This document shows positions 2,913-19,369 of a stretch of 64,000 bases of DNA, in pieces. A program made the position numbers and the translations under genes. The DNA comes from Photobacterium toruni. GTDB taxonomy: Bacteria; Pseudomonadota; Gammaproteobacteria; Enterobacterales; Vibrionaceae. The notes under the pieces were generated by a model. That model saw only the letters and a program-made list of their open reading frames with translations, had not been told where the DNA came from and made no database searches. The stretch is taken from positions 868,001 through 932,000 of the forward strand of contig NZ_AP024855.1 of NCBI RefSeq assembly GCF_024529955.1. Reading direction: 5' to 3'. Numbering within the stretch: the first letter of the stretch is position 1; each line of letters begins with the position of its first letter.

Positions 2913-3923
2913 ATGACAACCTCAAGACGGAAATTGATAGAGCCTCAAATAACGCCTTTTTATCATGTGATTAACCGCTGTGTTCGGCGGGCATATTTAT
3001 GTGGGAACGATCCATATAACGGTAAAAACTATCATCATCGTCGTGGTTGGATAGTCAATAAAATTAAACAATTGTCGATGGTATTTTGTATCGATGTTTG
3101 TGCTTATGCGGTGATGAATAACCATTACCATTTAGTACTAAAAATAGATACTGAACAACAACAAAAGCTAACCTCTGAAGAAGTGATATCACGTTGGTTG
3201 CAGTTATTTAATGGGCATCCTATAGCGGTTGATTTTTTAAAAGAGGGTCAAATTAGCCCGGATAAACAACAAGCACTGTCAGCCTTAGTCACTGAATGGC
3301 AACAACGATTAGGCAGTATTAGCTGGTTTATGCGCTGTTTAAATGAAGAGATCGCGCGAAAGGCTAATAAAGAAGATCAATGTAAAGGCGCATTTTGGGA
3401 AGGACGGTTTAAGTCGCAAGCTCTTTTGGATCGACAAGCATTACTATCGTGCATGATGTACGTTGATTTAAATCCTATTAGGGCGGGCGTGGCGCCATCA
3501 CTAGAGCAATCAGATTTCACCTCGATTCAGCAGCGCATTCGCGAATATTATCAACCTAAAATCTCTCGATCAAATAAAGCATCACCCAGCGCTAACCATT
3601 TTCAATTATTACCTTTTGTAGGCGCTGAGCACCAAGCTAAAAAAGCAGGAATAGACGTTGCTTTTGCCGATTACCTCGAACTTATTGACTGGACGGGTCG
3701 GTGTATTCGTAATGATAAAAAAGGCTTTATTGCATCTAACCAGCCAAAGATTTTACAACAATTGGGAATAACCGCAGATGCTTGGTTTGAGCATAGTGAA
3801 CAGTTTATGGAGCGTTATGCCAATGTAAGCGGAAAATGGTCTCGAATGTGTGCTTTCAAACAACATGCAGGTGGGCATTGGTGCAAAGGAAAATCAGCGA
3901 GTCACCAGTTACATCCTAAATAG
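2913..3923 (+). CDS. REP-associated tyrosine transposase (Y1/HUH family)
   Basis: A 336-aa single-strand DNA transposase of the Y1_Tnp superfamily. The HUH metal-binding motif is visible in NNHYHLVLKI (about residues 69-78). The family's conserved YVDLNPIRAGVA segment follows near residue 187. These enzymes nick and join single-stranded DNA at hairpins. Length fits Vibrionaceae RAYT proteins, which are longer than IS200 TnpA. The gene is flanked by inverted GGACAGCC boxes, so it may be a domesticated or mobile RAYT unit. The frame is intact. Confidence 0.85.
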   Translation: MTTSRRKLIEPQITPFYHVINRCVRRAYLCGNDPYNGKNYHHRRGWIVNKIKQLSMVFCIDVCAYAVMNNHYHLVLKIDTEQQQKLTSEEVISRWLQLFNGHPIAVDFLKEGQISPDKQQALSALVTEWQQRLGSISWFMRCLNEEIARKANKEDQCKGAFWEGRFKSQALLDRQALLSCMMYVDLNPIRAGVAPSLEQSDFTSIQQRIREYYQPKISRSNKASPSANHFQLLPFVGAEHQAKKAGIDVAFADYLELIDWTGRCIRNDKKGFIASNQPKILQQLGITADAWFEHSEQFMERYANVSGKWSRMCAFKQHAGGHWCKGKSASHQLHPK

Positions 3924-4102
3924 ACATAGCTTCATAACTAGATGAAAATAGCGTAATAACCGTTAGGATTGCGGGCATTGGCGATCGCGAAATATAGTAT
4001 TAGCACTTATTTACCAATAAATTAAAGACTAAGCGGTAATTTTTATAGTTAATGAGTCTATTTTAGCTGAATGGTTATTTTCTTAGGGGCTAAATTTAAG
4101 TG

Positions 4103-4158
4103 TTTAAATATTTGGCTGTCCTTTAGTTCTTATTTAAATATTTGGCTGTCCTTTAGTT
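4103..4158 (+). repeat. Tandem 26-bp repeat with TGGCTGTCC boxes
   Basis: A 26-base sequence occurs at 4103-4128 and again, identical, at 4133-4158 (30-base period). Each copy contains TTTGGCTGTCC, the inverse of the box upstream of the Y1 transposase. It is probably the right end of the RAYT unit, duplicated. Confidence 0.75.
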
Positions 4159-4245: not shown

Positions 4246-4380
4246 CTAATTATATATTGGTCCAATTAGATCTAAATGTGTTAGATACAAACGCATGTCT
4301 AGTTCCAATTGGTGATAATTAGGCTCCATATAACAACATAGCTGATAGAAAGATTTATTATGTTCCTTTTCTTTTAAATG
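4246..4380 (-). pseudogene. 3' fragment (codons 125-168) of a YgjP-like metallopeptidase gene
   Basis: Read on the minus strand, these 135 bases encode HLKEKEHNKSFYQLCC and onward to GPIYN and a stop: 44 codons matching residues 125-168 of the intact copy at 4592-5098. Together with the 124-codon 5' fragment at 18745-19116 they rebuild exactly 168 codons. This is therefore the 3' half of a host gene cut by the island. The cut falls inside the zinc motif HExxH, between Ala and the second His, so neither fragment can be active. Confidence 0.93.
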
Positions 4381-4520
4381 ACAAAGTTACCTTTACACTT
4401 GAATTCTGGAAGTTTTCTGGAAGACTTTGTTTAATAAGGTTTATTGTTATTTTCCAGAAAAATGAGATTTTTCCGATATTTTGGCGGAAATAATGAAAAT
4501 TTAATAAGTTTTCCAGAATA
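4381..4520. repeat. Left end of the island with TTCTGGAA iterons
   Basis: TTCTGGAA occurs at 4404-4411 and 4415-4422, and its complement TTCCAGAA at 4452-4459 and 4511-4518. The outer part, TTACACTTGAATTCTGGAA (4393-4411), is an imperfect inverted copy of 18692-18713 near the right end. These are likely recombinase-binding arms. Confidence 0.7.
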
Positions 4521-4591
4521 ATAAAATGATCGTTTTTAAATGCATTTATCGATAGACTTGGATTATTTTAGGTATAGCGTAATTTTATTAT

Positions 4592-5098
4592 ATGACGACT
4601 TTAGTGTATTTATCCGGTTACTCGTCTCAACTACTTGAGCAAGTACAACAACTTATTGAGACTAAAAGGTTAGGAGAGTATCTAACAAATAAATATCCAG
4701 AAAAACATAATATTACAACAGAAAAAGCGCTGTACAGTTATGTTGTTGACTTGCAAAGGAAATATATCAAAAAAACATCTATTATTAGTAAGGTGGCTTA
4801 TGATAAGAACATTCATTCTGTTCATAATGCTTTAGGACTGCATACTTTTGTATCTCGTATACAAGGGAATAATTTGAAAGCTAAAAATGAGATTAGAATC
4901 GCACGAGTATTTAGATCTGCTCCTTTAGCTTTTTTAAGAATGATTACTATTCATGAGTTGGCGCATTTGAAAGAAAAGGATCATAACAAAGCATTTTATC
5001 AACTTTGCTGTCATATGGAGCCTAATTATCATCAGTTGGAGCTAGATATGCGTTTATATCTAACTCACTTGGATTTGGTTGGTCCAATATATAATTAA
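4592..5098 (+). CDS. Intact YgjP-like zinc metallopeptidase carried by the island
   Basis: A 168-aa protein of the YgjP-like metallopeptidase family (DUF45). The zinc-binding motif HELAHLKEKDH lies at about residues 121-131, followed by FYQLCCHMEPNYHQLE as expected for the family. It is closely similar to the split host gene (fragments at 4246-4380 and 18745-19116), and the similarity extends about 70 bases upstream of the start, so a promoter was probably duplicated too. It is oriented opposite to the host gene. I infer that it supplies the function lost when the island inserts. The substrate is unknown. Confidence 0.88.
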   Translation: MTTLVYLSGYSSQLLEQVQQLIETKRLGEYLTNKYPEKHNITTEKALYSYVVDLQRKYIKKTSIISKVAYDKNIHSVHNALGLHTFVSRIQGNNLKAKNEIRIARVFRSAPLAFLRMITIHELAHLKEKDHNKAFYQLCCHMEPNYHQLELDMRLYLTHLDLVGPIYN

Positions 5099-5189
5099 CT
5101 GTAGGAGCATAAAAATAGATTTTTCACATGTATTTGAACAAAAGTAAGTCATAATTATGTAGATAGCAAAAGTTTGAATAGAGAGTGTT

Positions 5190-5345
5190 CTAAATTGTTT
5201 TCAGTTCCTGTCTCATTTGCTTCTGTGAACGCATACAACATTGCCAGTTCAGATCTGTTTTTGTGTTCATATCCCATTTGAGTTCATAGAAAACACGACT
5301 TGAGACAATCCCCGCGATTTCATCGATGTTCTTAGTTTCTGCCAT
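5190..5345 (-). CDS. Small hypothetical protein, 51 aa
   Basis: A 51-codon ORF starting MAETKNIDEIAGIVSSRVFY and ending in a basic helix (MRSQKQMRQELK). Its base composition is richer in GC than the flanks, and an AGG motif lies about 10 bases before the ATG. I do not recognise it. It lies on the strand opposite to its neighbours in the island and could be a real small gene or the fragment of a longer lost one. Confidence 0.4.
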   Translation of the reverse strand: MAETKNIDEIAGIVSSRVFYELKWDMNTKTDLNWQCCMRSQKQMRQELKTI

Positions 5346-5695
5346 TGAATTTACCTATAAATCCTTGATTGTTATACGACCATTTTATCTTTAGCAGCCC
5401 ATAGTAACAATAATGAAATGCATGAAGTTGCATTTAAAAAAGCAGCTTTATCCAGATTTCCTTCAATAAAAGTATCTTTGCTTACTCATAATTGCCCCAA
5501 AGTTGTTTAGTGCTTTTACTCATTTATATAGTATTAACGTGATTTTGGATTAGTTTTAGTTATATCTTTCACCTTACTCTTTGCCTCCTCATTTTTATAG
5601 GTAAAAAAGTGTTACCAAGGTAATGACACCATATGAATACCCAATGTACTATTGCCTAACTTTTTAGTCATTAAGTCGGTAGCTAGGGATAAATA
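5346..5695. other. Island intergenic region with no clear gene
   Basis: 350 bases. A frame of about 31 codons starting at an ATG near 5420 (MHEVAFKKAALSRFP) is open, but I cannot support it as a gene; it may be gene debris. The rest presumably includes the promoter of the PIN-domain gene. Confidence 0.4.
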
Positions 5696-6823
5696 ATGAG
5701 TTCAGTTGAATATGGTGCAATTAGCATCGACACATCAATATTTGATGGTAATGGTTTACGTATTGAGTCGGGGTTGTTTAAAAAGTTAGAGCAATTTAAA
5801 CCTACCGATGTAGATGTTGTTCTTTCTGATATTGTTTATCAAGAAGTGGAGACGCATCTAAAGAAAAAAGTTAGTGACGCTAGATCTTCATTGGAGAAAT
5901 CACTAAAAAACACAAATGTGCATTTAAATGTGGATGAATCTGTTGTAAATGATGCAAAAGGCTTGTTATTGGCTAACTCCATCGATGAAGTAACAGCAAC
6001 TCGATTACAATCTTTCGTGGAAAGTACTGGATTACTAGTCATTGATTCAGAAGACCATCTTGACGTTAAATCATTAATCAGTGCTTACTTCCAAAATGAG
6101 CCTCCATTTGCACAAAGTGGCAACAAAAAAAATGAGTTTCCAGATGCAATCGCCCTTCTGACACTTGAAGCATGGGCTGAGGAAAATGATAAGAAAATAA
6201 TCGCGGTCACCAGTGATAATGATTGGTTAAAGTATGCTGAAAACTCGGAATGGATTGATTGCACCCAAGACTTTGCTGAAGCATTGTCGATATTCCAACC
6301 AAAAACGGCGCCTTACACTTTCTTCACTTCGCTTGCGAAAACGCTCGTTGAGGGAAGCGACAGTCCTTTTTACTCGCAAATTGAAGATAGTGCGACTAAC
6401 TATACTGATGGTTTAGACCTTGATGCAGATGCTTGTTCAGGTTTTTTCTGGGAACAAAATGACATGGTCGAAGTGTCGTTTAATTCAATGGAGTTTGTAT
6501 CAGACGGATCTTCTCCAAGCTTACAGCTAGTAGAAGTTGATTCTGAACAAGTTGTTGTACAAGCAATATTAAACATAGAGGCTGACGCCTCTTGTTCGTT
6601 TTCGTTATCGGTTCATGACTCCATTGATAAAGATTATGTATTTTTAGATGGATGCTCAGCTACCACTACATTTGATTACGAAACAGAGGTTCTAATCACT
6701 TTTTCTGGTGATTTTACAGATAGTGACGACTTTACCTCTGTTGAGATAACAGATGTTGAGTTCTTGTCGTCACCATCGAGTGTTAATTTTGGTGAGCTAG
6801 AGCCTGACTTTTGGGGTGAGTAA
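5696..6823 (+). CDS. PIN-domain (DUF4935-like) protein with a C-terminal beta-rich domain
   Basis: A 375-aa soluble protein. Residues 8-200 show the PIN-nuclease pattern: SIDTSIF with Asp12, QEVETH with Glu50/52, FPDAIALLTL with Asp150 and VTSDNDWLKY with Asp174. These four acidic positions are what PIN ribonucleases use to bind metal. This arrangement recalls the DUF4935 PIN-like group. Residues 230-375 are acidic and strand-rich and may recognise a target. There is no antitoxin-sized partner next to it, so it is not a standard VapC toxin. A single-gene defence role is plausible, but that is inference from the setting. Confidence 0.75.
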   Translation: MSSVEYGAISIDTSIFDGNGLRIESGLFKKLEQFKPTDVDVVLSDIVYQEVETHLKKKVSDARSSLEKSLKNTNVHLNVDESVVNDAKGLLLANSIDEVTATRLQSFVESTGLLVIDSEDHLDVKSLISAYFQNEPPFAQSGNKKNEFPDAIALLTLEAWAEENDKKIIAVTSDNDWLKYAENSEWIDCTQDFAEALSIFQPKTAPYTFFTSLAKTLVEGSDSPFYSQIEDSATNYTDGLDLDADACSGFFWEQNDMVEVSFNSMEFVSDGSSPSLQLVEVDSEQVVVQAILNIEADASCSFSLSVHDSIDKDYVFLDGCSATTTFDYETEVLITFSGDFTDSDDFTSVEITDVEFLSSPSSVNFGELEPDFWGE

Positions 6824-6830
6824 ATTGGTA

Positions 6831-6989
6831 TAACAAATAAGGATATGTAACAAATAAGGATATGTGTCGCGAAGCCGACACCTATCCGAAGTGTAAAACA
6901 TACTTTTCCTAATACTAATTAATTTAGATACATCAATCATTCTGAGAAGCTTTTGTCCAATATTGAGCTAGTAGCTGCTACTAGCTCAA
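6831..6989 (+). repeat. Structured intergenic repeat, island copy
   Basis: After the PIN gene come two tandem 17-base copies ending GGATATGT, then a hairpin (GGATATGTGTCG with CGACACCTATCC, 6858-6887). Next are ATACTTTTCCTAAT (6900-6913), a 31-base spacer, AGAAGCTTTTGTCCA (6945-6959), 5 bases, and a hairpin GAGCTAG-N9-CTAGCTC (6965-6987). The same boxes with identical spacing occur inverted at 53118-53207. It could be a dispersed repeat, a recombination site or a structured RNA 3' end. Confidence 0.75.
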
Positions 6990-7196
6990 TGTGATCACCA
7001 AGCGATTTAATCTTTTAGTAAACGTCACTTTTTAGACTTTTATGCGCAAACACCGCGCTGATTGAATATTCTGAAATCAGTAACAAAATTACAACATCAA
7101 GTTTGAGCTTGTTTTTTATGCTTTTTCTTATGAAAGTGCATGCTTTACTGTACAATTGTATTGCGCTTTGATCACGAAGTTCGTTAAAGATAGCAT
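6990..7196. other. Intergenic region upstream of the membrane protein gene
   Basis: About 200 bases after the structured repeat. It includes the presumed promoter of the 7197 gene; I see no ORF or strong palindrome. Confidence 0.4.
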
Positions 7197-7937
7197 ATGT
7201 TAAATACAGCCGTTTATTGGGATTTCGGTAATTTGGATAAATATAAAAAAAACAAAATCATGAGTTCTGCGTTAGATGGAAAGTTTTTAGCTCAACCATT
7301 CTTAGAACTTTCAGATAAAACTAACAAAGTAAGACGTAATTTAAATATAACGGCACTGATTGCATTTGCTCTAACCGTTTTAAATGTAAAATTAGATAGT
7401 ATTAATTTATCAGTTGTAAAGATTAATGGTGTTACGGATACAAAACTATTTTCTGTTTTGTTATGCGTATTGCTATACCACATTATTTACTTTACATGGT
7501 GTACTTATGATGAGTATTGGAAATGGCGTTTGCAGCTAATCAAAGAAGATACTGATGATTACACTAAACGGCATACATCTGATTATAGCCTTTCACCTAG
7601 TCAGTTAGCGGTTGATTCTAATTTATACTGTAATAAACATACTTTAAATAGTATTTATTCGAGTATGAAAGATGCAGTTGTATACGCAGCTAATGAAAAA
7701 AAGCTAGATCCTGATGAGTTAAAAGACCGCTTTGAATCTGCATGGTGTAGTAGTATGCAGCCAGTGATAGAGCAAGACTTAGCTCGAATGAAAAGATATG
7801 AAGATAGTTTCAAAAACTACCATTGGCAAGAAATCATTAAATTCAGTCTATTAGAGTTCGGATTGCCAATGGTGCTGGCATTTTATGGTGTATATGAATT
7901 AGTTGTAAAGCTAATAATATTATGGATTCCCAATTAA
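7197..7937 (+). CDS. Membrane protein of unknown function
   Basis: A 246-aa protein with three likely membrane helices: about residues 50-68 (ITALIAFALTVLNVKL), 82-105 (LFSVLLCVLLYHIIYFTW) and 210-240 near the C-terminus. The charged loop between helices 2 and 3, about 110 residues, would be cytosolic. The start is uncertain: ATG 7197 has a weak AAAGA upstream, and an internal ATG at 7260 (MSSALDGK) is possible. I do not recognise the family. It stands alone, with a terminator 40 bases past its stop. Membrane proteins of this type occur in abortive-infection systems, but nothing here proves that role. Confidence 0.6.
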   Translation: MLNTAVYWDFGNLDKYKKNKIMSSALDGKFLAQPFLELSDKTNKVRRNLNITALIAFALTVLNVKLDSINLSVVKINGVTDTKLFSVLLCVLLYHIIYFTWCTYDEYWKWRLQLIKEDTDDYTKRHTSDYSLSPSQLAVDSNLYCNKHTLNSIYSSMKDAVVYAANEKKLDPDELKDRFESAWCSSMQPVIEQDLARMKRYEDSFKNYHWQEIIKFSLLEFGLPMVLAFYGVYELVVKLIILWIPN

Positions 7938-7976
7938 CTGATTTTTTAGTACGCATAAATAGAATTACTGTTAAAT

Positions 7977-8005
7977 GACCGTCCACAGTGGCGGTCTTTT
8001 TGTAC
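7977..8005 (+). terminator. Rho-independent terminator
   Basis: A GACCG...CGGTC stem with an inner CCAC/GTGG pairing, followed by TTTTT, 40 bases after the stop of the membrane protein gene. Confidence 0.7.
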
Positions 8006-8076
8006 TCTAAAGGTACTTTGTGAAGAAGTTACCAATACTTTCCCTAATGCTTATCAGCCTAAATAGAATAGAAAGC

Positions 8077-8187
8077 CTAACAAGGTTTTGTCCATGTACA
8101 TTTAAGTGCTCCCTTTATGACAGCTGCGATGACTCTGATATCTAATTCATTCCAACTTAGGGGTTCTTCACTTAACTCACAAAACAC
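8077..8187 (-). CDS. Possible small protein, 36 aa
   Basis: A GTG codon preceded by AAGGGAG at good spacing opens 36 codons (start MFCELSEEPLSWNELD, end CTWTKPC). The residue mix looks protein-like and the ribosome-binding site is strong for this region. It could equally be the 3' remnant of a larger gene, since the frame is closed only a few codons upstream. No family recognised. Confidence 0.3.
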   Translation of the reverse strand: MFCELSEEPLSWNELDIRVIAAVIKGALKCTWTKPC

Positions 8188-8562
8188 AAAATCTCCCTTA
8201 AGAAAACTAATCTTTCACCATCACATATTCACCGTAGAATACTGATTATTTATGCTCGTTTGAGCAAGACTGATTCATTTTATGTGAGAGCAAAGTTGCG
8301 CTTTCACATATGCGCTTTGTGGTGTATTTTTACCGGAAAATATATACAGTGATAACGTGTTACTTGTTGTAAGCAGAGCGCGGTTAAGCCTAAGAAATAG
8401 CATGCTAAATTAACTGGTCTTTCTAGGTTTGATTGCATTGTAATTAATTGAAAAAAATGAGTATTATTATATCCATACTCTAAGTGTTAAGTAGAAAATT
8501 GGGTGTGATAATTCGTTTTTCATTGACGTAGTAAAATCTACTTTCTTCATTAGGTTAAATTC
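8188..8562. other. Island intergenic region
   Basis: 375 bases with no ORF I can support. It contains TTTATGTGAGAGCAAAG and a related inverted GCTTTCACATA around 8279-8311, which may form a weak hairpin, and the promoter region of the DUF4209 gene. Confidence 0.4.
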
Positions 8563-10365
8563 ATGGCTAACTATTCAGATGATATTCTGATTTCGGAAAA
8601 GATATACAGTAATTACACAATTGATTTGCCTAGATTAAGCGTCCCCAATGGTACGTTTAGCTTACAGCTTGGCCGGAAAGGGGACACTGAGAGAGAGAAA
8701 GAAAACGATGAGCTAGCAAAACTCTACTATGTGCTAGCAAAAATCATGTTGTTTAGGTTTTCACCAAGTAGCGTCAATGATCCTTACCGAGCTCATGAGC
8801 TAGATTCAATTGCGGAGAATCTTACTGATAATGACTTAGATATATTGGAAAAGCTTGCATCGCATTGTGAGTGCCTTGCTATCAAAGCTCGAATTGCTGA
8901 CATTAGATGGCTTCTCGTGAAGCCAAAAAACTATAAAGATGCGATAGCTGCTATCGAGAATTATTCGGAATACCCTGTAGAACCTGTGACTTGGAACGAG
9001 GGCACTAAAGACTTTTACGAGCGTGCATTATGTCTTGGTTTGCAGCTACGAAAAGGGGCAGAAAAGCAAGTCACAGCTTTGGAAAGAAAACTGTTATCCT
9101 CTTTAGAAGGCGACTTCATTAATTCTAGCCCATACTTTCATCTTCAAGTGGCTAACCTCCTATTCGAATATGCCTTAGCTAAAGGGAAGTCGACTTGGCT
9201 AGGGATACGTTTTTTAGAAAGAGGACAGTACTTTATTAGGGAAAAGAACTTCAACGCAGCACGCAGTTATTTGTTGTTTGCTGCAGACCGATTCGGTGCT
9301 GAGGGCGATGAAGAGCAATGGCTGCTTTGCAAATACCTTACAGCTAATTCGTGGGAGCTGGAGGCGGAAGCAATAGATCATTCTTTTGTTAGAAAGCATT
9401 TCTATGAAAATGCTTTTCATTCATATACAGCCATTCCAACGAGATATAGGGACAAATTCGAGATAGATAGCAAAATACTCGAATTGAGAAATTCACTGAG
9501 AGTTGTTGGTCAGAAAGCCGTTGCTGAATTGCCTGTTATAAAAATGCCTTCAGTAGATGTATCTGAATCTGTGAAAGCTTCAATAGAGTATATGTCAGGT
9601 TTGGTTGATACAGCTACTGCGATACAATCTCTAGCACTAATCTGTAAACCTGTAACTCTGATTTATGCTGAAGATTCATTGAAAAGCCAACTTGAAAATA
9701 CACTCTTCACTAGGCTATTTAGTACAGTAAGATTCACAAGTGATGGCCGCTCTGCTGGGCGTTCAAACCCCCTTGGAATCGAAAGTGATGTCGAGGAAAG
9801 TGATAAATTTACGGTACTTGTTGAGAAAGCTTGTCACTATGCAGAATTTGTCTCTCAGGCCTCAATTATTCATGGTCTAAACCAATTATTGGAAGAGCAT
9901 CGAATATCCTTTCATCAATTACTAGAAATGTGCAAGTTGAGCCCATTTGTTCCCACCGATAGAGCACGCTTATTTGCCCGTGGGCTCTATTTAGGTTTCG
10001 AGTATGACTTTGCTACTGCCATACATATGTTGGTACCTCAATGGGAGCATATCGTCAGAAACGTCTTAAACGAATGCAGTGTCGCAACTACCGTGATTAA
10101 AGATAGCCAAGAGACGGAGATTGGTCTCTCTAAACTTCTCGATAAAGAAGAAACAGCAGAGATATTCGACCAAGATTTATTGTTTGAGATGAAAGCCCTC
10201 CTCGTACATTGGCATGGTCCAAACCTAAGAAACAATATCGCACATGGGCTCATTTCTACCAATGAAGCCGGAAGTTATTTGGCCGTTTATTGGTGGTGGA
10301 GGTCACTAAGACTCATTGTGATGTCACTTGCCCCTATGTGTGAGGCGAATACAAATATTAAATAA
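8563..10365 (+). CDS. DUF4209-type protein with an Rx4H (HEPN-like) motif
   Basis: A 600-aa soluble, almost wholly helical protein. The C-terminus (about residues 480-575) carries HGPNLRNNIAHGL, the hallmark I associate with DUF4209. It contains R556-N-N-I-A-H561, the Rx4H spacing of HEPN ribonucleases. Residues 60-330 look like helical repeats and could act as a sensor region. HEPN proteins often act as RNases in anti-phage or abortive systems; that role is inferred here from the motif and the mobile-island setting. It is a single gene with long untranslated flanks and no evident partner. Confidence 0.7.
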   Translation: MANYSDDILISEKIYSNYTIDLPRLSVPNGTFSLQLGRKGDTEREKENDELAKLYYVLAKIMLFRFSPSSVNDPYRAHELDSIAENLTDNDLDILEKLASHCECLAIKARIADIRWLLVKPKNYKDAIAAIENYSEYPVEPVTWNEGTKDFYERALCLGLQLRKGAEKQVTALERKLLSSLEGDFINSSPYFHLQVANLLFEYALAKGKSTWLGIRFLERGQYFIREKNFNAARSYLLFAADRFGAEGDEEQWLLCKYLTANSWELEAEAIDHSFVRKHFYENAFHSYTAIPTRYRDKFEIDSKILELRNSLRVVGQKAVAELPVIKMPSVDVSESVKASIEYMSGLVDTATAIQSLALICKPVTLIYAEDSLKSQLENTLFTRLFSTVRFTSDGRSAGRSNPLGIESDVEESDKFTVLVEKACHYAEFVSQASIIHGLNQLLEEHRISFHQLLEMCKLSPFVPTDRARLFARGLYLGFEYDFATAIHMLVPQWEHIVRNVLNECSVATTVIKDSQETEIGLSKLLDKEETAEIFDQDLLFEMKALLVHWHGPNLRNNIAHGLISTNEAGSYLAVYWWWRSLRLIVMSLAPMCEANTNIK

Positions 10366-10456
10366 ATCATTGACATAAATGATGCTGAAGACATGTTTAG
10401 TCTAGCTGTCGTGGGTAAGTGAAATTGGCCCCTACAATGGTGCCTAGTTTGATAAC

Positions 10457-10672
10457 GTGCTAATTGTATTAGGTAGGGGATGGAATTTCACGTTGTTAAA
10501 CATAGGATATCCGTCTAATAAAAAAGATGCACTAGAACGTAATCTATTTTATGTTGCGTGTTCTAGACCGAAGATAAATTTGACAGTATTGATAACACAA
10601 CAATTGTCTGAAAATTCTTTAGCTTTGTTGCGATATTGGTTTGGTGATGAAACTGTGCAGTCTATTTATTAA
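10457..10672 (+). pseudogene. C-terminal remnant of a UvrD/Rep-like helicase
   Basis: 71 codons from a GTG. The segment ERNLFYVACSRPKINLTVLI is the motif VI region of superfamily 1 helicases (YVACSRPK), followed by the usual C-terminal tail ending in RYWFGDETVQ. No upstream helicase sequence remains: an in-frame TAG lies at 10445. It is therefore the tail of a gene whose first several hundred codons were deleted. A helicase of this kind would fit a lost defence system, but the family cannot be set from the tail alone. Confidence 0.7.
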
Positions 10673-10905
10673 AAAATGATGTGGATTTTTAAAGAAGAGT
10701 CAGTAAATTACTAGCTCTTCTTTACTTTATAATTATTTTAATTCTGAGGTAAAAGTGAGATATATTGTTTAAATGAAACTATATTTTTAAACTATAATTA
10801 ATTTCAAGGTTTTATTGGAAATTATAATTATATTCAGTGGTGCTTCACTTAATATTGTAATTATATAATTATGTTATATTTTTCTTTACAAAGTTGAGGA
10901 TGAGA

Positions 10906-12039
10906 ATGATTAATAAAAATTATGATGTAAAAGTTAAGACGATATTGATTGAAGATATTATCATAGCTCCAGAAACACAACATAGAGCTAATCATTCTCA
11001 AGCACATATTGCTAATTTAATAGAAAGTATTTCAGAGGGGGATAATTTAACCCCAATAACCATCATTGAAAGTAATGATATGAATACTGAGGAAGAAAAA
11101 TATTATTTGGTTGATGGTTACCATAGATTAGAAGCTCATATATTATCAGGTATTGATGAAATAAAAGCTAAAATCATTAATGTTGGCAATAAAGAATTAG
11201 CAATAGAATTATCATTATCTGCAAATGCAGAACATGCTCCGGCTTTACCAAGAAATGCTGATGATTTAAAAAAAGCTTGTACAAATTGCTGTGAGTTTTT
11301 ACATAGAAAAAACAAAAATAGCAGTAAAATTCCAGATGAATATATATCTATCAATACTCAGAATGTGGCAGATATTGTTCATTGTTCATATAATGTGGCT
11401 CAGAATCAAGTTGTTGATTTTAATAATAATAAAAGGTATATTAGAAATAGAAAAATATACGGTGATTTGAAAGGAGAGATAAAAATATCTGAAATAGCAG
11501 AAAAATATGGATTATCTGAACAAATGATACGTAAAATAAAAAAAGATAAAGAAGGGGAGGATAGATATGAAAAAAAGAGGCCTTCAGGTTGGTCTAGGTC
11601 AAGACGAGGATCATTACTTAACTCTAAAAACGTCACTAACACTCATGGTAAGATATCTAACTTAAAACATATTGATAGACATTCTTATGCTGATGATTTA
11701 GCAGAGAGAGATATTATAAATTATCTTATTAATTTACGAATGTTTGATGGGGCGAATTCTGATGTAAATAAAACTAATATGTATATTTATGGTGGACAAG
11801 TAGACATTATTGGTACACATGAATTAGTTGAAGTAAAAAAATTTGGTACTAGAGCTAATATTTTTCAGGCAATTGGTCAAATAATAACTTACAGCTTAAG
11901 ATATCCAAATAAACAAAAAGTAATTGCTTGTCTCTGGCATGATGATATCGGACAATTTTTAAAATATGATATACTAAAAAAATTGGATATAAAATTGCTG
12001 ATAATCAATTCTGACGGAACAAATAAGTATATGGTATAG
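10906..12039 (+). CDS. ParB-like / HTH / PD-(D/E)xK-like nuclease fusion
   Basis: A 377-aa protein with three parts. Residues 1-100 are a ParB/sulfiredoxin-like domain (VDGYHRLEAH at about 73-82). The middle (about 120-215) has helix-turn-helix segments (NVADIVHCSYNVAQ and KISEIAEKYGLSEQMI). The C-terminus has YGGQVDIIG, LVEVKK and QAIGQIITY, a PD-(D/E)xK-like nuclease pattern with Asp near 301 and Glu-x-Lys near 309. I place the start at ATG 10906, six bases after GAGG; a TTG at 10894 also opens the frame. Very AT-rich. It could be a DNA-targeting defence or maintenance protein; the role is unknown. Confidence 0.7.
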   Translation: MINKNYDVKVKTILIEDIIIAPETQHRANHSQAHIANLIESISEGDNLTPITIIESNDMNTEEEKYYLVDGYHRLEAHILSGIDEIKAKIINVGNKELAIELSLSANAEHAPALPRNADDLKKACTNCCEFLHRKNKNSSKIPDEYISINTQNVADIVHCSYNVAQNQVVDFNNNKRYIRNRKIYGDLKGEIKISEIAEKYGLSEQMIRKIKKDKEGEDRYEKKRPSGWSRSRRGSLLNSKNVTNTHGKISNLKHIDRHSYADDLAERDIINYLINLRMFDGANSDVNKTNMYIYGGQVDIIGTHELVEVKKFGTRANIFQAIGQIITYSLRYPNKQKVIACLWHDDIGQFLKYDILKKLDIKLLIINSDGTNKYMV

Positions 12040-12085
12040 TATTTTATATATTTTAGTGTTTGTTTTTTAAAACTAATATAAATAT

Positions 12086-12544
12086 TTAATTTATATTTTT
12101 TATTTTATTCCTTTTAAAATAGGCTAATTGGTTTCTTAGCTCAGTATTTATTTTTTCTAATTCATCTATTTTGGCATTAGCTTTTCTAAGTGCATCGTTG
12201 AAATGATGGTGATCAGTAGCCATTTTTGAAACAAGTGCTTTTAGCACATTTTTCTCTTGTTTATATTTCTCTTTGATTTTAGTTTCTTTTTTTATTCTAT
12301 CTCGTAATTTTGGTGATACGTCTTTGGTAGGATTTTTACTATGAGAAGGTAAGTTGATTTTTTCTTTTTTTATCTTAGCAATTATTTCAGGATAATAGTA
12401 TCCACTACCATTACCAAGGTTTGCTTCTTCTTCTACGGCGCGTACACTGAGCTTCCGCGTAGAGGGTATACGTTTAGTTTGCTGTTGTAGGATACGTTCT
12501 AAAGCAGCTTCAAGAGCGTATAGAGTATCTTCTTTTTTGCTCAT
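12086..12544 (-). CDS. Small coiled-coil protein of the recombination module (TnpC/GmtX-like position)
   Basis: 152 aa, very basic. The N-terminus (residues 5-50) looks like a winged or helix-turn-helix segment (KLSVRAVEEEANLGNGSGYYYP). Residues 85-145 form a coiled coil ending in lysines. It is the last gene of the leftward recombinase operon, and its start overlaps the previous stop by four bases (ATGA), indicating translational coupling. By position and size it matches TnpC of Tn554, a small accessory protein of transposition, or the third protein of gamma-mobile-trio islands. I cannot tell which without a search. Confidence 0.65.
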   Translation of the reverse strand: MSKKEDTLYALEAALERILQQQTKRIPSTRKLSVRAVEEEANLGNGSGYYYPEIIAKIKKEKINLPSHSKNPTKDVSPKLRDRIKKETKIKEKYKQEKNVLKALVSKMATDHHHFNDALRKANAKIDELEKINTELRNQLAYFKRNKIKNIN

Positions 12545-14577
12545 AATTCTTTAAACTCCACTGGATGTGTATAGACACTAAAATCTATTCCAAAATCAGT
12601 CATGACACTTTCTGCAGCCCTGATTTGAGTAATACAATGAGAATAAATTGAAGGTGAGACAGATATATTTGAAGCTAGATACTTAGTTAAGTCTAAATGC
12701 TTTTTTTGCCACCATTGAGCATTATCTTCATCAATAATGCTACTTCCGCTTGAACAATCAATACAAAAAGTCGGATTTATAATGCCATCCATATCACACT
12801 TATATCCATTTTTGCAGTAGCTATGCATTGTTCCATGTAAGGTGAGCTGCCCTTTTTTTACAATGTCATAAATAATATCCCATGAGCTATAAATATGAGG
12901 GATATCATTTCTCATTGCAACTATAGCTTTACCATGAACTCCTGATAATGGTTTATCATTATGTACCCAATCAAAAAATTTTTGAGTTGTATCTTGTATT
13001 TTTGTTTCATCTAATAGTATTTGTAGGTCTTTATCCATTTCAAGATCTTTTAATCTATTTGATATGCTTCCTTCGCAATACCACTCAGTCATTTGTAAGT
13101 ATAAATGCTTAAACTGTTGTTTTAAGGATATTGTACTACCAAGACGATGCTTTATAGTATAAAAAGCGAGTGAACGCCGGAATTGGTGAGAACTTAAAGG
13201 CCATGGTTTATTTATGAAAATATTTTGTTTTATTAAGTCTAAACTGTTGGGATTAGATTTTATACACTCATCATAATCGTCCTCTGTAACAATAATATTG
13301 TTCAATATAACGAATGTTTTTAATCTATGAGGCCAATTAGTAATTGTAGATGGATATTTTGAACGAACTACTTGATTTATCCATATATTTTTAATTTTAG
13401 TTGGTGAATTTTTATTACATGCTGATCTCCATTCTTTTGTTAAAATGGACATTAATTCAATAGCTTTTTTGCAGATGGCTGCAGTAACCCAAGTGGCTTT
13501 TTTTTCACCAAATTTAAATGTTTTAGACTGAAGTAAATGGAAGGTTTTTCCATCTATATTCTCTTCAAAATAACTATCAATACTTAATTCTTTTAATTCA
13601 GAATCTCTCATTCCAGTGAATGCTCCACAGCATATGTAACATGCTGTAATTAAATCATTATAGTATGAAATCCAACTCCTACCATCAAAGTTATAATGAG
13701 ATAATGGAGTGTTACTTAAATTTCTATTTATAATTTCTGTTATTGGTATTGATTTTATTTCTGATTTTTTTGCCGAATATCGGCGTTTAGTCGTAATATG
13801 ATTTAGATTCCCACTATCAATTAATCGGTCTAATTCTTTTGTTCGAAAAATATAGTCATTCTGAATGTCAATTTCAGTATTTAGTAAATAATATCTATAT
13901 GGGAAAGCCATCTCAATTTTTTCAATAGCAGCTGAATATATGTTATCAGCTATCCTTTCTGGTATTGTTAATGTTTGCTGCTGTGTTTTGTTACTTAATT
14001 TCACAGCTAATTCTTTTGATTTTATTTTTGATATATTAAAATCAATGTCAATCCATTTTTGCAGTAATAGTATATTGTTTATTGCTACAAATTTAAGTTC
14101 AATCGTATGTTGAGATAACTTTTTTTCTTTAATATATTCTTCGAAGTAATTCCAAAGTTTAGGATCTCCAAGTGCTTTAAGTGATGTCTTTTCATGTGTT
14201 AGTAAAAACTGATAGATTAATTTCAGATCTGAATAACGACTTATAATTGTTCTTGGTTTTGCAGGAGTAACCTGACGGCCTGATTTATGAAATATCCATC
14301 CATAGATTATCAGTTTTAATTCTATTGTTAATGTGAATGATGATTTGAACTGTTCAAAATTAAATTCATGTTCCCGTATATAATTTTCTGAAAAATAAGG
14401 TTTTAAGCTCCATTTTGTATCACCAAATTTAGATATTATATTATTTTCTTTATCTTTACAGATGGCAATATTATTCAATTTGTCCCATTCTTTATTTTTC
14501 ACTAATGATACAATATCATAATTAATAGCTAAATGTTCAATGGGATAATCTGATGGTATATTTAATTTATTAGTCAT
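12541..14577 (-). CDS. Large tyrosine recombinase-like protein (TnpB/GmtZ-like)
   Basis: 678 aa. Box I is seen as GAFTGMRDSELKEL (about 318-331, catalytic Arg in GMRDSE). Box II is HQFRRS (about 463-468), with HLYLQMTEWYCEG (about 490-502) offering His and the Tyr nucleophile. A cysteine cluster (CKNGYKC and later CIDC, about 590-615) suggests a zinc-binding C-terminal region, as in TnpB-type recombinases. It lies 14 bases after the previous gene and overlaps the next by four. The frame is intact, very AT-rich. It probably works jointly with the two upstream recombinases. Confidence 0.8.
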   Translation of the reverse strand: MTNKLNIPSDYPIEHLAINYDIVSLVKNKEWDKLNNIAICKDKENNIISKFGDTKWSLKPYFSENYIREHEFNFEQFKSSFTLTIELKLIIYGWIFHKSGRQVTPAKPRTIISRYSDLKLIYQFLLTHEKTSLKALGDPKLWNYFEEYIKEKKLSQHTIELKFVAINNILLLQKWIDIDFNISKIKSKELAVKLSNKTQQQTLTIPERIADNIYSAAIEKIEMAFPYRYYLLNTEIDIQNDYIFRTKELDRLIDSGNLNHITTKRRYSAKKSEIKSIPITEIINRNLSNTPLSHYNFDGRSWISYYNDLITACYICCGAFTGMRDSELKELSIDSYFEENIDGKTFHLLQSKTFKFGEKKATWVTAAICKKAIELMSILTKEWRSACNKNSPTKIKNIWINQVVRSKYPSTITNWPHRLKTFVILNNIIVTEDDYDECIKSNPNSLDLIKQNIFINKPWPLSSHQFRRSLAFYTIKHRLGSTISLKQQFKHLYLQMTEWYCEGSISNRLKDLEMDKDLQILLDETKIQDTTQKFFDWVHNDKPLSGVHGKAIVAMRNDIPHIYSSWDIIYDIVKKGQLTLHGTMHSYCKNGYKCDMDGIINPTFCIDCSSGSSIIDEDNAQWWQKKHLDLTKYLASNISVSPSIYSHCITQIRAAESVMTDFGIDFSVYTHPVEFKEL

Positions 14578-14591
14578 TTTAAAGTTCCTAT

Positions 14592-15680
14592 TTATGATAA
14601 TATCATAGAATCAATATCTTTCCAGAGTGGATGCCTTCCTTCATTTACAAGTTTATAATTGGATGATTTAATTAATTTCTTATCAAGTCTTGGTAATATT
14701 TCCTTATCAATAAAGTCTATTGTTTTTTTGAAATTATCTTCATAATGCTTGCTATCTATATGAAGATATAATGATTCTTCTAAGTTTTCTTTGAAGGATA
14801 ATAAACACCATATGTCATCAAGTGATTGTATGATTACTTGATGTTCACATCCAAAGCATGCTAATAAATCAGCACATGCTAGTGTTAGGTTATCTTTGTA
14901 TTTACTTGAACGTTTATTGAATATTTTTGATTTCTTTCCAAAAGGATCTGAGCAATACGTACCATTTGCTGAGACTTTTAAATTTGGAGACAATTTTTTA
15001 AGGTATTCTTCATACGTTAATGTTGAAATATGTAGTGTTTCTTTAATTTTATTTATTGGTTCTTTGGTTCGAGCTTGTTCATAACGGATTGAAATAGTTT
15101 CTTGTAACATTTTATTGTTATCATGATCATTACCAGTTGTGTAGTGTTTCTGTATAACATTTGGAGTATTACCTAAGATTATAGAAGAAGCTAATTCACC
15201 TTGATTTATTTGTGATAATTGACTTCCCGTCTGTCTAAATCTTGATATTTTAGGTAATAATTCATTTCCTCTATCATCCGTCATTGGATGATATCTACGT
15301 ATGAATCTTTTATTAAATGATGATAAGGTTGATGATGATATAGGTATTACATCATTACTTATACATAACTGAAATAATAATGCATCTTTCGAATTATCTA
15401 TCGCAGTAGAGACTTTAAGAAGAGTGTCAAAAAAATTCATACAGTATTTAGGTATATTGAGATTGTGTTGTCCAATTTCAACATGAATTATTTTAAATGA
15501 TCTTCGTTTAAATACTGGCATTGTATACCATTCATCTTTAATGCTAAATCCTGCTTTTTGGGGGCGTTTAAGGGTAAATAATTGGGTAGTGTTAGTACTA
15601 GTATAATAAGCCATTAAATAAGTAGCAGCTACCATCATTTTGCTTATTCCACTACAAATCTTGTTTTTTTTCCATTCCAT
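14592..15680 (-). CDS. Second recombinase, C-terminal frame
   Basis: A 362-codon frame forming the catalytic half of a protein that starts in the overlapping frame at 15644-16312. RFRQTG (box II-like) and ILGNTPNVIQKHYTTG (with the Tyr nucleophile position) resemble the end of a tyrosine-recombinase domain; other catalytic residues look degenerate. The two frames overlap by 37 bases at an A8 run (15664-15671). A -1 shift there joins them into about 573 aa, a normal size for the middle member of such modules. An independent start at ATG 15680 is less likely, because residues before about 6 only copy the slip site. Confidence 0.75.
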   Translation of the reverse strand: MEWKKNKICSGISKMMVAATYLMAYYTSTNTTQLFTLKRPQKAGFSIKDEWYTMPVFKRRSFKIIHVEIGQHNLNIPKYCMNFFDTLLKVSTAIDNSKDALLFQLCISNDVIPISSSTLSSFNKRFIRRYHPMTDDRGNELLPKISRFRQTGSQLSQINQGELASSIILGNTPNVIQKHYTTGNDHDNNKMLQETISIRYEQARTKEPINKIKETLHISTLTYEEYLKKLSPNLKVSANGTYCSDPFGKKSKIFNKRSSKYKDNLTLACADLLACFGCEHQVIIQSLDDIWCLLSFKENLEESLYLHIDSKHYEDNFKKTIDFIDKEILPRLDKKLIKSSNYKLVNEGRHPLWKDIDSMILS

Positions 15681-16312
15681 TCAAAAGTCATAGTATATGA
15701 TGAAACATAACTAGATTTATGCTTTTCAGGATTATCTAAAAATTGAGTGGCAGTTTGTTTAAATAATGCTCTTAATAATGGTAAAATTTTTTTTAGATCT
15801 GAACGAGAATAAGATTGGTTTGATTCTTGATCATTTCTAGATACTAATAATATATTATCAAAATAGTTTTCATTATAACCTAAAAGAGAAAATACTAATT
15901 TTAGGTCGTGTATAATATGACAATATGAACTTCGTTTTATTTCTTTTCTCTGTACTCGTTGATAAAGGTATTCACTATATTTTTTTATTGATGGTTCTGC
16001 AAATAAACATAGCTTTTTTTTATCACTCCATATAATATAAGAAAAGGTTTTACTTACCATGGAAATAATACTTTCAACAGCATAGGTGTTAATTATTGAG
16101 TTGATTTCACTTTTAAATTTATTAACTAATTCGTCACGACTTGCAAAGGTACATTCCCCTTTAATTATTTCATTTTTACGAGGAAGATTAAAATATCGAA
16201 CTCTATTGAAATCTATGTATCTTCGGTGAAAATCATCTTTTTCAAGTGTAATATAAAGTTCTGGATCCCATTTAAATCGGTAGATTGAATTATTCATTAA
16301 TAATATCCCCAT
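15644..16312 (-). CDS. Second recombinase, N-terminal frame
   Basis: 222 codons giving the N-terminal, DNA-binding-like half of the middle recombinase. The start is either ATG 16312 or ATG 16297. The latter lies a few bases upstream of the previous gene's stop and overlaps it by 8 bases, with GGGGAT before it. The frame ends 6 codons after an A_AAA_AAA slippery heptamer. Continuing in the -1 frame gives a full-length protein with the ORF at 14592-15680. Either frameshifting is programmed, as in many insertion sequences, or this is a recent one-base deletion or a read error. Confidence 0.75.
   Translation of the reverse strand: MGILLMNNSIYRFKWDPELYITLEKDDFHRRYIDFNRVRYFNLPRKNEIIKGECTFASRDELVNKFKSEINSIINTYAVESIISMVSKTFSYIIWSDKKKLCLFAEPSIKKYSEYLYQRVQRKEIKRSSYCHIIHDLKLVFSLLGYNENYFDNILLVSRNDQESNQSYSRSDLKKILPLLRALFKQTATQFLDNPEKHKSSYVSSYTMTFEWNGKKTRFVVE
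15664..15671 (-). other. A8 slippery site for -1 frameshifting
   Basis: On the coding strand the codons read GGA AAA AAA ACA, placing the heptamer A_AAA_AAA in the exact phase used for -1 ribosomal slippage. After a -1 shift, reading continues AAC AAG ATT into the 362-codon frame. An SD-like GAATGGAA lies just upstream. Confidence 0.6.
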
Positions 16313-16705
16313 TTATAGCATCATGCATTATTTCATCTAATAAAGATAATTGGTTTAAGAATATTTCCTTTCTTTTTAAGTAACGTAAATATTTCCAAGT
16401 CGTTTGTTCATGATTATGCCCCATCCATGACATTATACAATCGAGTGCTTCACTAGTATCTATGCCAGATTGAAGTAAATCATTAAGTCTGTATGTCCCA
16501 TAAGTACAGCGTAAATCATGAAATTTATGATGGAATGTTAAATCAATCATACGAACGTTTTTTCTAAAATCAGCCCATCTAGCACTAATTACTTTACTCT
16601 CAGTAGGATTGCCATAATTACTTATAAACAGAGGAGTAAAGATGATGCTTCGTTCTAAAGCTTTCACTTTATGATTTGGCAAGCTTTGTATTACATTTAA
16701 TTGTT
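16290..16705 (-). pseudogene. First tyrosine recombinase, C-terminal part (cut off by IS)
   Basis: This frame carries the catalytic end of a tyrosine recombinase: FHDLRCTYGTYRL (His-x-x-Arg) and MSWMGHNHEQTTWKYL (His and the Tyr nucleophile). It is separated from its first 304 codons by the IS1595 element. Removing the IS and one target copy joins the frame without any change (QL then NVIQSLPNHK) into a 439-aa protein. By itself this piece has no proper start or ribosome-binding site. Its stop overlaps the start of the next recombinase, so the original genes were translationally coupled. Confidence 0.92.
16698..16705. repeat. Target duplication, left copy
   Basis: TAATTGTT directly before the left inverted repeat of the IS. 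It is identical to 17732-17739, and 8 bp is the duplication length expected for the IS1595 family. Confidence 0.95.
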
Positions 16706-17731
16706 CCTGATTACCACTATTTAACAGCCACTGTTAAATTATCTCCTATACTTTAAGATATTGAAGTATAGGAGTGACGTTATGCCTAAGAATTCAATCC
16801 AATTTCAGAAAGGCTTTTCTATACCCGAATTTATGCAAATGTATGGGACAGAAATTCAATGTAGAGAGCGTTTATTTAATATTCGATGGAAAAATGGTTA
16901 CGTTTGCCCTACCTGTGCTTCTAAAAGTTATTGTGAACTTAAATCGCGGTCATTATATCAATGTAATAAGTGTCACCATCAGACATCATTGACGGCAGGT
17001 ACTTTATTTTCCCATTCAAAATTACCGTTAACTACTTGGTTTTTAGCTATTTATCTCATCACACAAGATAAAAACAGTATTTCAGCATTAGAGCTAAAGC
17101 GTAAATTAGGGGTTTCTTATAACGCAGCATGGCGAATAAAACATAAGCTCATGCAAGTGATGAAAGAGCATGATGATAATCGAAAGTTAGGCAATATCGT
17201 GCAATTGGATGATGCATATATTGGAGGTAAACAAAAAGGAAAGCGAGGACGTGGTGCCAAAGGTAAAACACCTTTTGTATCAGCGATCTCTTTGAATGAA
17301 GAAGGTCATCCTATTTATATGCGGCTAAGTGTTGTTTCTTGTTTTAAAAAACAAGAAATTACAGATTGGGCTAAAAAGCATTTACAAGAAAAAACGTTAG
17401 TCATATCAGATGGTTTACCCTGTTTTAATGGTCTGTTAGCAGCAGATATTATTCATGGTTCATTACCAAAAAATGGTAAAGAACTTCACCAATATGAAGC
17501 TGCATTTTATTGGGTCGATACCATGATTGGTAACGTTAAAAATTCGATAAAAGGGACATATCACGCAATTAGAGAAAAGCATATTCCTCGTTATCTTGGT
17601 GAATTCTGTTTTCGATTTAATTATCGGTTTCGAGTTGAAGATATATTCAATACGCTAATTAAATGTGGTGCAAAATCACCACCGATGCCAGAGAAATTAT
17701 TAACGCTGGCTGAGTCTCGGTGGTAATCAGG
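16706..17731 (+). mobile_element. Complete IS1595-family element, 1026 bp
   Basis: Bounded by inverted repeats CCTGATTACCAC (16706-16717) and GTGGTAATCAGG (17720-17731) and by 8-bp direct repeats TAATTGTT. It encodes one transposase. It has inserted into the first tyrosine recombinase gene of the island, between codons for Leu304 and Asn305. It is nearly identical to the partial copy at 1-585 and in the same orientation. Confidence 0.96.
16782..17726 (+). CDS. IS1595-family transposase
   Basis: 314 aa. The N-terminal zinc ribbon has CPTCASKSYC and CNKCHHQ (about residues 44-76), followed by a helix-turn-helix-like segment (SALELKRKLGVSYNAAWRIK). Then comes an ISXO2-like catalytic domain with Asp in LDDAYIGG, Asp in ISDGLPCF and downstream acidic/His/Asn residues. 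I chose ATG 16782 because AGGAG lies seven bases upstream. The frame is complete and the element has intact ends, so it should be active. Confidence 0.93.
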   Translation: MPKNSIQFQKGFSIPEFMQMYGTEIQCRERLFNIRWKNGYVCPTCASKSYCELKSRSLYQCNKCHHQTSLTAGTLFSHSKLPLTTWFLAIYLITQDKNSISALELKRKLGVSYNAAWRIKHKLMQVMKEHDDNRKLGNIVQLDDAYIGGKQKGKRGRGAKGKTPFVSAISLNEEGHPIYMRLSVVSCFKKQEITDWAKKHLQEKTLVISDGLPCFNGLLAADIIHGSLPKNGKELHQYEAAFYWVDTMIGNVKNSIKGTYHAIREKHIPRYLGEFCFRFNYRFRVEDIFNTLIKCGAKSPPMPEKLLTLAESRW

Positions 17732-17739
17732 TAATTGTT
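17732..17739. repeat. Target duplication, right copy
   Basis: TAATTGTT, identical to 16698-16705 on the other side of the IS. Confidence 0.95.
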
Positions 17740-18643
17740 TATGTTTGAGTTTTTTTAAACGTTTTAAATAGCGCTCACTTATAGAGTAATTTTTTAGTGC
17801 TATTAGTAATTGATATGAAATTTCAATTTTTCGAGTTTTTTTATATTTTGTTTGTACACCATTGTTTAAACCAATAGTTATGGAATAACGAGATTTATTT
17901 TCTGTAAGTGGTATAGCTTGATTTATCGCATCAGTTGTTAAAGTGGATATCTCATTTATTCGCAATCCACATTGAAGCCCTAATAAACATTGTAATCGAA
18001 ATTCTATAGATTCATTTAATAGTTTATTCGCTAGTAATTTTAGATCTTCTCGACTTAATGCATTCATTGAGTTTACATTGTTTGTCTGTGCTACTTTGGG
18101 AACACGAATTCTTAAATCGCTAGTTTGAACAGTAAATTTCTTTTTTAGATGAGCGAGTTTATCGCTCCTTTTTATGTCAATGAATTCAAGACAAAATGGA
18201 GCTGCATTTTCATTTTCTATCTTGAGATAGTTGCCATGAATTGCCCAGATATAAAACTGAACGACATGGCTTAAGTAATGGTTTGCTGTTGAATGGGCTA
18301 TTGCGGTATCTTCAATGAGCGTGATTAGATGGTGTCTAAATTGATATGTAGGTTTCAGTCTTTTTATAGGAGGAAAATTATTCCATTCGAGGTTCTGCTC
18401 TTCTAGAAAAGACCAGTATAAACGTAACGCTCTTGAATAGGAGCTGAGATCTACTAAATGTTTTACTGCTTTTAGGTCAAAGAACCAGCTATTAACGATA
18501 TCTATGAATTGACCATCTTTTCCATAAAGAGTAGGTAAACAACCTAAATTTTTTCCATTTTGTGTAAAAAAAGGATGAGATGATGAGTCAAACGTTAGAG
18601 AGCTATCTGTGAATACATTTTGAGATACTATCAATTTAGCCAT
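17732..18643 (-). pseudogene. First tyrosine recombinase, N-terminal part
   Basis: Codons 1-304 of a 439-aa tyrosine recombinase (TnpA/GmtY-like). Residues 50-150 form a SAM-like core-binding domain (YSRALRLYWSFLEEQ, STANHYLSHVVQFYIW). GLQCGLRINEISTL (about 223-236) holds the box I arginine. The IS1595 element at 16706-17731 separates it from the catalytic His-Arg-His-Tyr region. Translation now runs into the IS and would give an inactive 340-aa chimera. The gene starts about 100 bases inside the island's right end, as expected for an integrase next to its attachment site. Confidence 0.92.
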
Positions 18644-18691
18644 TCTGCATCCTATCTAAATGAACACCGTTTATATTACTGTGTATTATTT

Positions 18692-18744
18692 TTCCAGAAT
18701 TGCAATAGTGTAAGAGTATTTTTTCGACACTAGTCTGTAAGAGT
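18692..18744. repeat. Right end of the island: inverted repeat and TGTAAGAGTA pair
   Basis: TTCCAGAATTGCAATAGTGTAA (positions 18692-18713 hold it) is an imperfect inverted copy of the left-end sequence at 4393-4411. TGTAAGAGTA occurs at 18709-18718 and again at 18736-18745, the second copy reaching the junction with the split host gene. They are probably binding sites for the recombinases. Confidence 0.65.
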
Positions 18745-19116
18745 AGCTAACTCGTGAATAACAATCATTCTTAAAAATTCTAACGGAGCAGTTCTAAATA
18801 CTTGAGCTATTCTAATTTCATGCTTAGCTTTCAATTTACTCCCTTGTATACGAGATACAAAAGTATGTAACCCCAAAGCATTGTGGATGGTATGAATATT
18901 TTTATCATAACCAACTTTACTGATGGCTGGTGATTTTTTTATGTTTTTTCTTTGCAAATCAATAGTATAATTATAAAGAGCTTTCTCTGTTGTAATGTTA
19001 TGTTTTTCTGGGTATTTTTTCGTTAAATACTCACCTAATTTTTTAGTTTCAATAAGTTGTTGCACTTGTTCAAGTAGTTGAGGCGAATAACCAGATAAAT
19101 ACACTAAAGTTGTCAT
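18745..19116 (-). pseudogene. 5' fragment (codons 1-124) of the split YgjP-like metallopeptidase gene
   Basis: Codons 1-124 of the host gene, ending in HELA, after which island sequence adds four unrelated codons and a stop. Codons 125-168 are at 4246-4380 on the same strand. I start it at ATG 19116 (MTTLVYLSGY), matching the intact copy, and not at the upstream in-frame ATG 19149. The second zinc-binding His is lost, so the product cannot be an active peptidase. The sequence differs at many positions from the island's copy, so the two did not arise by recent duplication. Confidence 0.93.
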
Positions 19117-19369
19117 ACAAAAAACTACGTTACATTTTGGATGATACAAGTTTATCGATAAAAGAATTAAAAAACGATAAATTTATCCTTCAGGATAATG
19201 TTATTAATAGGTCGGTTGTTAATTGACTATGGTCGCTATTCTAATTTGATGTTTTGCTTTAATTTTGTTGTTTTAGATACTGCTGAGATAACCTTATTAT
19301 TTTATAGTATCAGTGGTAAGTTGAGTTGAATCGGGTAAATAATTAACTATATCAGTAAGGATAATAACT

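Follow-up and report, generated by a model that had tools for sequence, protein, structure and literature searches.

How does a mobile element come to interrupt a gene while carrying an intact copy of that same gene, and what becomes of the gene at such a locus? The question was raised by a 64,000-nucleotide stretch of the Photobacterium toruni genome (contig NZ_AP024855.1, positions 868,001 to 932,000; hereafter the window, in which all coordinates are counted), where an island lies within a YgjP-like metallopeptidase gene (ygjP). We consider it probable that the island, an element of the SE type, targets the stretch of ygjP coding for the zinc motif and brings a diverged copy of the gene by which YgjP activity would be kept, and that at least two such events took place at this locus.

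The split gene lies on the minus strand; its 5' part (18745..19116) holds codons 1-124 and ends in HELA, and its 3' part (4246..4380) resumes with HLKEK and holds codons 125-168 (44 codons) plus the stop. The two fragments total 168 codons, which is the length of the spare gene carried by the island (4592..5098, plus strand), an intact reading frame of 168 residues that retains the zinc motif HELAH and belongs to the Pfam family PF01863 (YgjP-like; 37.6 bits, cut-off 26). Searched against the whole genome, the spare returned four places, namely the spare itself, the two fragments and one distant match of 31% identity, and revealed no further close homologue of the spare. The original prediction of one gene split by an element with an intact 168-codon copy aboard therefore agrees with the coordinates, the codon sum, the domain assignment and the genome search. 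Its description of the spare as diverged, opposite in orientation and accompanied by similar upstream DNA held as well: DNA identity between the spare and the split gene is 81% in the 5' part, with some 90 bp before the start codon counted in, and 84% in the 3' part. The similar upstream region of the spare spans 4502..4591 (plus strand) and was recognised both by alignment and by an inverted-repeat pair; an independent repeat listing returned inverted pairs of 406 nt at 80%, 134 nt at 84% and 78 nt at 74%.

The ends of the element were placed by comparison with Photobacterium carnosum TMW 2.2021 (genome G043 of the comparison set), in which the same element is inserted at the same ygjP codon. 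The prediction that the cut falls within the zinc motif, between HELA and H, could be narrowed to the point that follows the first two bases (GC) of codon Ala-124, and the reconstructed empty sites read GAGTTAGC^TCATTT in the window and GAACTGGC^ACATTT in P. carnosum, both encoding HELA^H. Including its footprint, the element is 14,364 bp long. Its left terminal motif C (attL; TACTCTTACA, 18736..18745, minus strand) has the same break in P. carnosum, and its right terminal motif C' is TGTAAAGGTA (4388..4397, minus strand). As judged by eye, 8 of the 10 outer bases of C and C' are complementary in the window and 9 of 10 in P. carnosum, with little pairing past 10 bases. Between C' and the resumed gene stand the bases ACTTTG (4382..4387, minus strand), which are identical in P. 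carnosum, so that each right end holds exactly 6 extra bases. In the SE model, imperfect terminal inverted repeats C and C' of 13-19 bp bound the element, 6 bp beside C' are added at integration, and attB supplies the 6 bp beside C (PMC10214605, PMC9345347), and the footprint at this locus fits that rule. Uninterrupted genes of 168 codons were found in two genomes of the same genus (G022 and G041), where the same methyltransferase and moaB genes lie upstream and the downstream DNA matches the window at 92% and 89%, respectively, over 442 bp; the empty site called for by the original prediction thus exists.

Comparison of the two species indicates that the spare travels with the element, because the spare in the window shares 95% identity with that in P. 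carnosum, while the split gene of P. carnosum is of the ordinary Photobacterium type, to whose 5' and 3' fragments the window spare is only 57% and 75% identical. Between the two spares, non-synonymous divergence (dN) is 0.024 and synonymous divergence (dS) is 0.371; therefore, the spare is under purifying selection, although intA and tfp, two recombination genes of the element, are broken in the window. For reference, six other pieces of the element differ between the species by a dS of 0.07-0.29, and the host genes moaB and methyltransferase by 0.42 and 0.50. The split genes differ by a dS of about 2.3, from which it follows that the two insertions hit different alleles; in identity, the flanking moaB reaches 97.8% and the methyltransferase 86%, but the split gene only about 64%. 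Within the window, spare and split gene are separated by a dS of 1.15.

The earlier label of a native host gene did not survive this comparison. In a ygjP tree of 51 rows, 48 of them different (the spare of genome G226 was entered twice), the window split gene forms one clade with three spares, those carried in the window, in P. carnosum and in G046 (support 98/95), and within it joins the first two of these (99/92). In P. carnosum and in G046, the split gene falls among ordinary Photobacterium natives. Remnants of an ordinary, vertically inherited ygjP were found on both sides of the split gene, at the syntenic position of the ordinary gene and on the minus strand. On one side, the window flank at 19278-20700 matches P. 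carnosum at 86% and G022 at 80% up to a point some 46 bp short of the start codon of the native gene; past it come a remnant of native codons ~93-105 (19232..19269; 38 bp at 89% identity with the native of G022) and then the upstream region of the mobile-type gene. On the other side, a remnant of codons 151-168 (2748..2801; 18 of 18 residues as in the natives of G022, G041 and G043) directly adjoins the conserved downstream region, which is 92% identical to P. carnosum. Between this 3' remnant and the split gene lie a multi-copy element resembling an insertion sequence (IS; 2828..4128, plus strand) and the end of another repeat (4169-4232). Since native remnants flank a gene of the mobile clade on both sides, the original gene must have been split or replaced earlier. 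These data indicate that the gene in the window is a xenologous replacement rather than the vertical native, that the locus was replaced at least once before, and that the mobile-type successor stayed intact until the present element split it.

At one end, the element carries the block intA-tfp-intB-srap on the minus strand, which corresponds to the SE operon as described (PMC10214605, PMC9345347). The tyrosine recombinase gene intA (16290..18643) is interrupted by an IS of the IS1595 family at about 16704-17731, and the tfp homologue (14592..16312) is divided into two open reading frames (ORFs) in different frames; in P. carnosum, tfp is a single open frame throughout and intA is open from a contig break to the gene end. 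The intB gene (12541..14577) encodes 678 residues, of which R324, H464, R467 and Y500 are invariant among 10 aligned sequences; we assign these candidate R-H-R-Y columns, a hallmark of IntB in SEs, the catalytic role. The srap homologue (12086..12544) encodes 152 residues. The four genes occur in the same order and on the same strand in the window and in 10 other loci, located in P. carnosum, in other genomes of that family and in Motilimonas; their pieces are 25-95% identical to those of the window, and IntB 35-90%. On the plus strand, the cargo comprises genes for a PIN-domain protein (5696..6823), a DUF7380/DUF4209 protein of the candidate defence family PDC-S39 (8563..10365) and a ParB-like protein (10894..12039; 96% identical in the P. 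carnosum element), together with a 71-residue ORF (10457..10672) that matches the C-terminal end of GajB, the Gabija helicase, and is likely a remnant. From the PDC-S39 candidate and the GajB-end ORF, the cargo reads as defence-type with decay. IS1595-family copies near-identical to each other (99.7% over 589 bp) are present at 5-580, cut by the window edge, and at 16761-17726 within intA. In the element of genome G025, a second, truncated srap-like piece (62 residues, 73%; locus L112, 11965-12700) lies beside a full srap. Elsewhere in the window, a gene at 43664-46924 encodes a 1086-residue protein with Peptidase_M66 and TagA domains.

How general such copy-carrying is was surveyed from the gene and from the recombinase. 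Searches starting from ygjP gave a match in 103 of 148 relatives and in 211 of 394 genomes of the order, two sets that overlap, include the genome studied here and use different limits. Besides the window, G043, G046 and G226 have a split ygjP together with an intact copy, and small fragments below the limits would escape. Other islands with a spare ygjP-like copy, for which the original prediction had proposed a search, do occur: P. carnosum is cut at the same codon, G226 at HELA^H and G046 13 codons downstream of the window's cut. The recombinases of G046 and G226 are 21-33% identical to those of the window and 28-34% to each other; the G046 spare falls in the Photobacterium mobile clade, and the G226 spare in another clade. 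A second match in G046 is, judging by its neighbours and its look, an IS transposase. G258 holds a lone 3' fragment of ygjP, and no match to the core proteins of G226 or G046 was found in two stretches of that genome, which was left out of the counts as an ambiguous case.

Searches starting from the recombinase matched 49 of 296 genomes of the family and led to 52 loci (51, plus one in G144 of the same order), a set that omits places on short contigs (G387, G546, G583, G601 and G655), the window and G043. Three of these loci combine a split gene with a copy. In each, topB is interrupted within its TOPRIM motif (DPDR^EG) and the copy comes immediately after the srap-like gene; all three belong to a distant IntB group of 16 loci. 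A fourth flag in this survey, at G061, was an artefact caused by short ORFs whose family recurs many times within that locus. At L210 (10674-12590) and L212 (9895-11811), the topB copy follows the srap-like gene with start and stop overlapping. Both copies have V in place of the E of the host DPDREG motif, at the cut site, and one hypothesis is that a spare is immune through changed bases at the cut; the spare of the window differs there by synonymous bases only. A second recombinase search, whose alignment (A2) included the IntB proteins of G226, G046 and two topB elements and so leans to copy-carrying lineages, matched 24 of 295 genomes. Three of the 11 loci examined were positive, none of them represented in the alignment, and they concern a bcp-like peroxiredoxin gene (G236 and G338) and a methyladenine-glycosylase-like gene (G172). 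The two recombinase searches together thus gave at least 6 positive loci among 63, in three gene families, and this is a lower bound because many loci do not show both ends. When the flagging script was applied to a further 40 loci, of which many come from the same genomes, it flagged only two, both with ardC. At these (Novosphingobium; L142, ~5870-15700, and L147, ~5920-15810), an ardC-like zincin gene is interrupted in its HExxH motif (HEV^xH); its halves flank a recombinase cluster, and a second, intact ardC stands between them. Since ardC genes often occur in tandem, both loci were left out of the counts.

From these results, the following course of events is proposed. The recombinases of the element would recognise the DNA encoding the zinc motif of ygjP, and the element would have entered as a circle at GC^T CAT (HELA^H), splitting the gene and leaving the 6-bp footprint; it may move by copy-out. 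A diverged ygjP with its own upstream region beside the right end would keep YgjP activity and make the insertion cheap. The spare would then be the sole intact ygjP, and selection would keep it even while the recombinase genes decay, as they do in the window. At this locus, an earlier replacement copy, which may likewise have arrived on an SE, would have stood amid the ruins of the original gene until the present element split it and brought the next. The element, its site, the joint travel with the copy, the purifying selection, the recombinase decay and the native remnants can be read from the DNA itself; that the spare is expressed and rescues function is what we infer from them. The original suggestion that a spare removes the fitness cost of insertion agrees with the selection data.

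It should be noted that several observations weigh against this reading. A promoter scan of 4381-5700 gave 7 candidates against a shuffle mean of 7.3, and hence no excess. ygjP was without a match in 9 of 51 genomes of the same genus and had only a distant match in one more; the gene is therefore not essential in the genus, and the need for rescue would be modest. The window srap had no match in the G046 or G226 elements, which may thus be either SEs or GInts. Within the window's own IntB group, none of 36 loci, not all of which show both ends, has a split gene with a copy, and copy-carrying is thus not a rule of that group. The halves of the P. carnosum split gene are on two contigs, with the break in intA beside repeat DNA, and we infer their linkage. 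Under the SE model the footprint stems from the left flank of the donor, and because ACTTTG is unlike the site in ygjP, both insertions probably came from a donor other than a ygjP gene, for example a plasmid; homologous blocks occur on conjugative plasmids, and homologues were found on Vibrio plasmids. Finally, the present element is, from the state of its genes, probably immobile.

Other accounts of the spare were weighed against the same data. Had the copy been derived from the host gene at insertion, by local duplication or gene conversion, the 81-84% identity of copy and split gene in the window, upstream DNA included, would be expected; however, the P. carnosum element contradicts this, since its copy is 95% identical to that of the window while the latter resembles the P. 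carnosum fragments so much less, and since the two copies differ by a dS of 0.37 against 1.15 between the window copy and split gene. We reject local duplication as extremely improbable. The copy might instead be ordinary cargo that by chance is a homologue of the disrupted gene, as SEs bear varied cargo and the 36 loci of the same IntB group lack such copies. We regard this as very unlikely, given that the pattern recurs in ygjP in two other recombinase lineages (G046 and G226) and again with topB, the bcp-like gene and the glycosylase-like gene; with about 10 cargo genes and about 4000 host genes, a chance match is estimated at well below 1% per element.

It was also considered whether the chief value of the copy is to punish island loss, as an addiction device, in line with the original suggestion that losing the island may be harmful; the genome has no other intact gene closely related to the copy, which has itself stayed intact while the recombinases decayed. 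The dispensability of ygjP in the genus argues against this idea, as does the absence of loss by excision in the published SE descriptions (PMC10214605), and it seems improbable to us. More credible, although still unlikely, is that the earlier replacement arose by allelic exchange with another Photobacterium rather than by way of a previous SE: the searched flanks (window 1-4300 and 19117-20000) yielded no recombinase gene of such an element, and a related gene in G013 branches next to the spare clade but not within it, at weak support (85/74). Nevertheless, original fragments on both sides with foreign DNA between them are what insertion into the gene leaves, and the foreign gene groups within an element-borne clade. 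One may go further and see SE-type elements as natural cleave-and-rescue inserters, in which diverged recombinase lineages evolved repeatedly to hit DNA for conserved catalytic motifs of conserved genes (YgjP HELA^H, TopB DPDR^EG) and to bring along a diverged copy, in many cases altered at the cut site, and so convert the gene of a population to a mobile version, with two such swaps here and some 'core' genes serially replaced; we put this forward tentatively, as a possibility somewhat short of even.

The original prediction called this a notable integration strategy, and the pattern is real, but the idea was already in print for SE-6283 and bcp (Nonaka 2018, 2022) and for RME and recA (2014). 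SE-6283 breaks bcp and supplies a copy, for which its authors suggest compensation (PMC5991714, PMC9345347), and RME likewise is an island that breaks recA and brings a copy (Rapa 2014, PMC4405046). SE-6283 (Tn6283) and SE-6283-like SEs share with the window element the tyrosine recombinases, the four core genes, the 6-bp footprint and entry into one conserved gene of which a diverged copy is carried (PMC5991714, PMC9345347), a likeness that, as with SE-6945, is drawn from the published descriptions. The target there is bcp and here ygjP; the spare here lies at the far end in opposite orientation, whereas the bcp copy, to judge from its locus tag, lies beside the core genes; and the gene split here was already a replacement. 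RME of Vibrio cholerae S24 is also site-specific, splits a conserved gene and brings a divergent copy, which is functional in that case. It differs in its recA target, in the phage integrase and XerS named by its authors, in the empty site that they report after excision, and in that effects of the recA copy were tested (PMC4405046); published SEs leave no empty site and are not lost by excision (PMC10214605). GInts resemble the window element in their four-gene recombination module, site specificity and circular form, but their targets, hit between genes or at gene ends, are probably not fully inactivated; in one case, a duplicated ribonucleotide reductase gene has a GInt at each end, and the portion of the source drawn on does not state a carried copy of a split target (PMC5385486). 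In the open-access literature, no ygjP or topB insertion of this kind was found, the topB search having covered part of the matches, and a search on replacement-copy wording found only RME. What is fresh here is the ygjP target, the sharing of the copy and not of the host gene between species, the pattern in other genes and the two-step replacement. A strategy printed for two genes, bcp and recA, is thereby extended to ygjP, topB and a glycosylase-like gene, and the locus preserves, like a fossil, the traces of one replacement after another. Provided that the copies rescue function, elements of this kind could enter conserved genes freely and replace host alleles, which would disturb the gene trees of supposedly vertical genes and help to explain the persistence of SEs.

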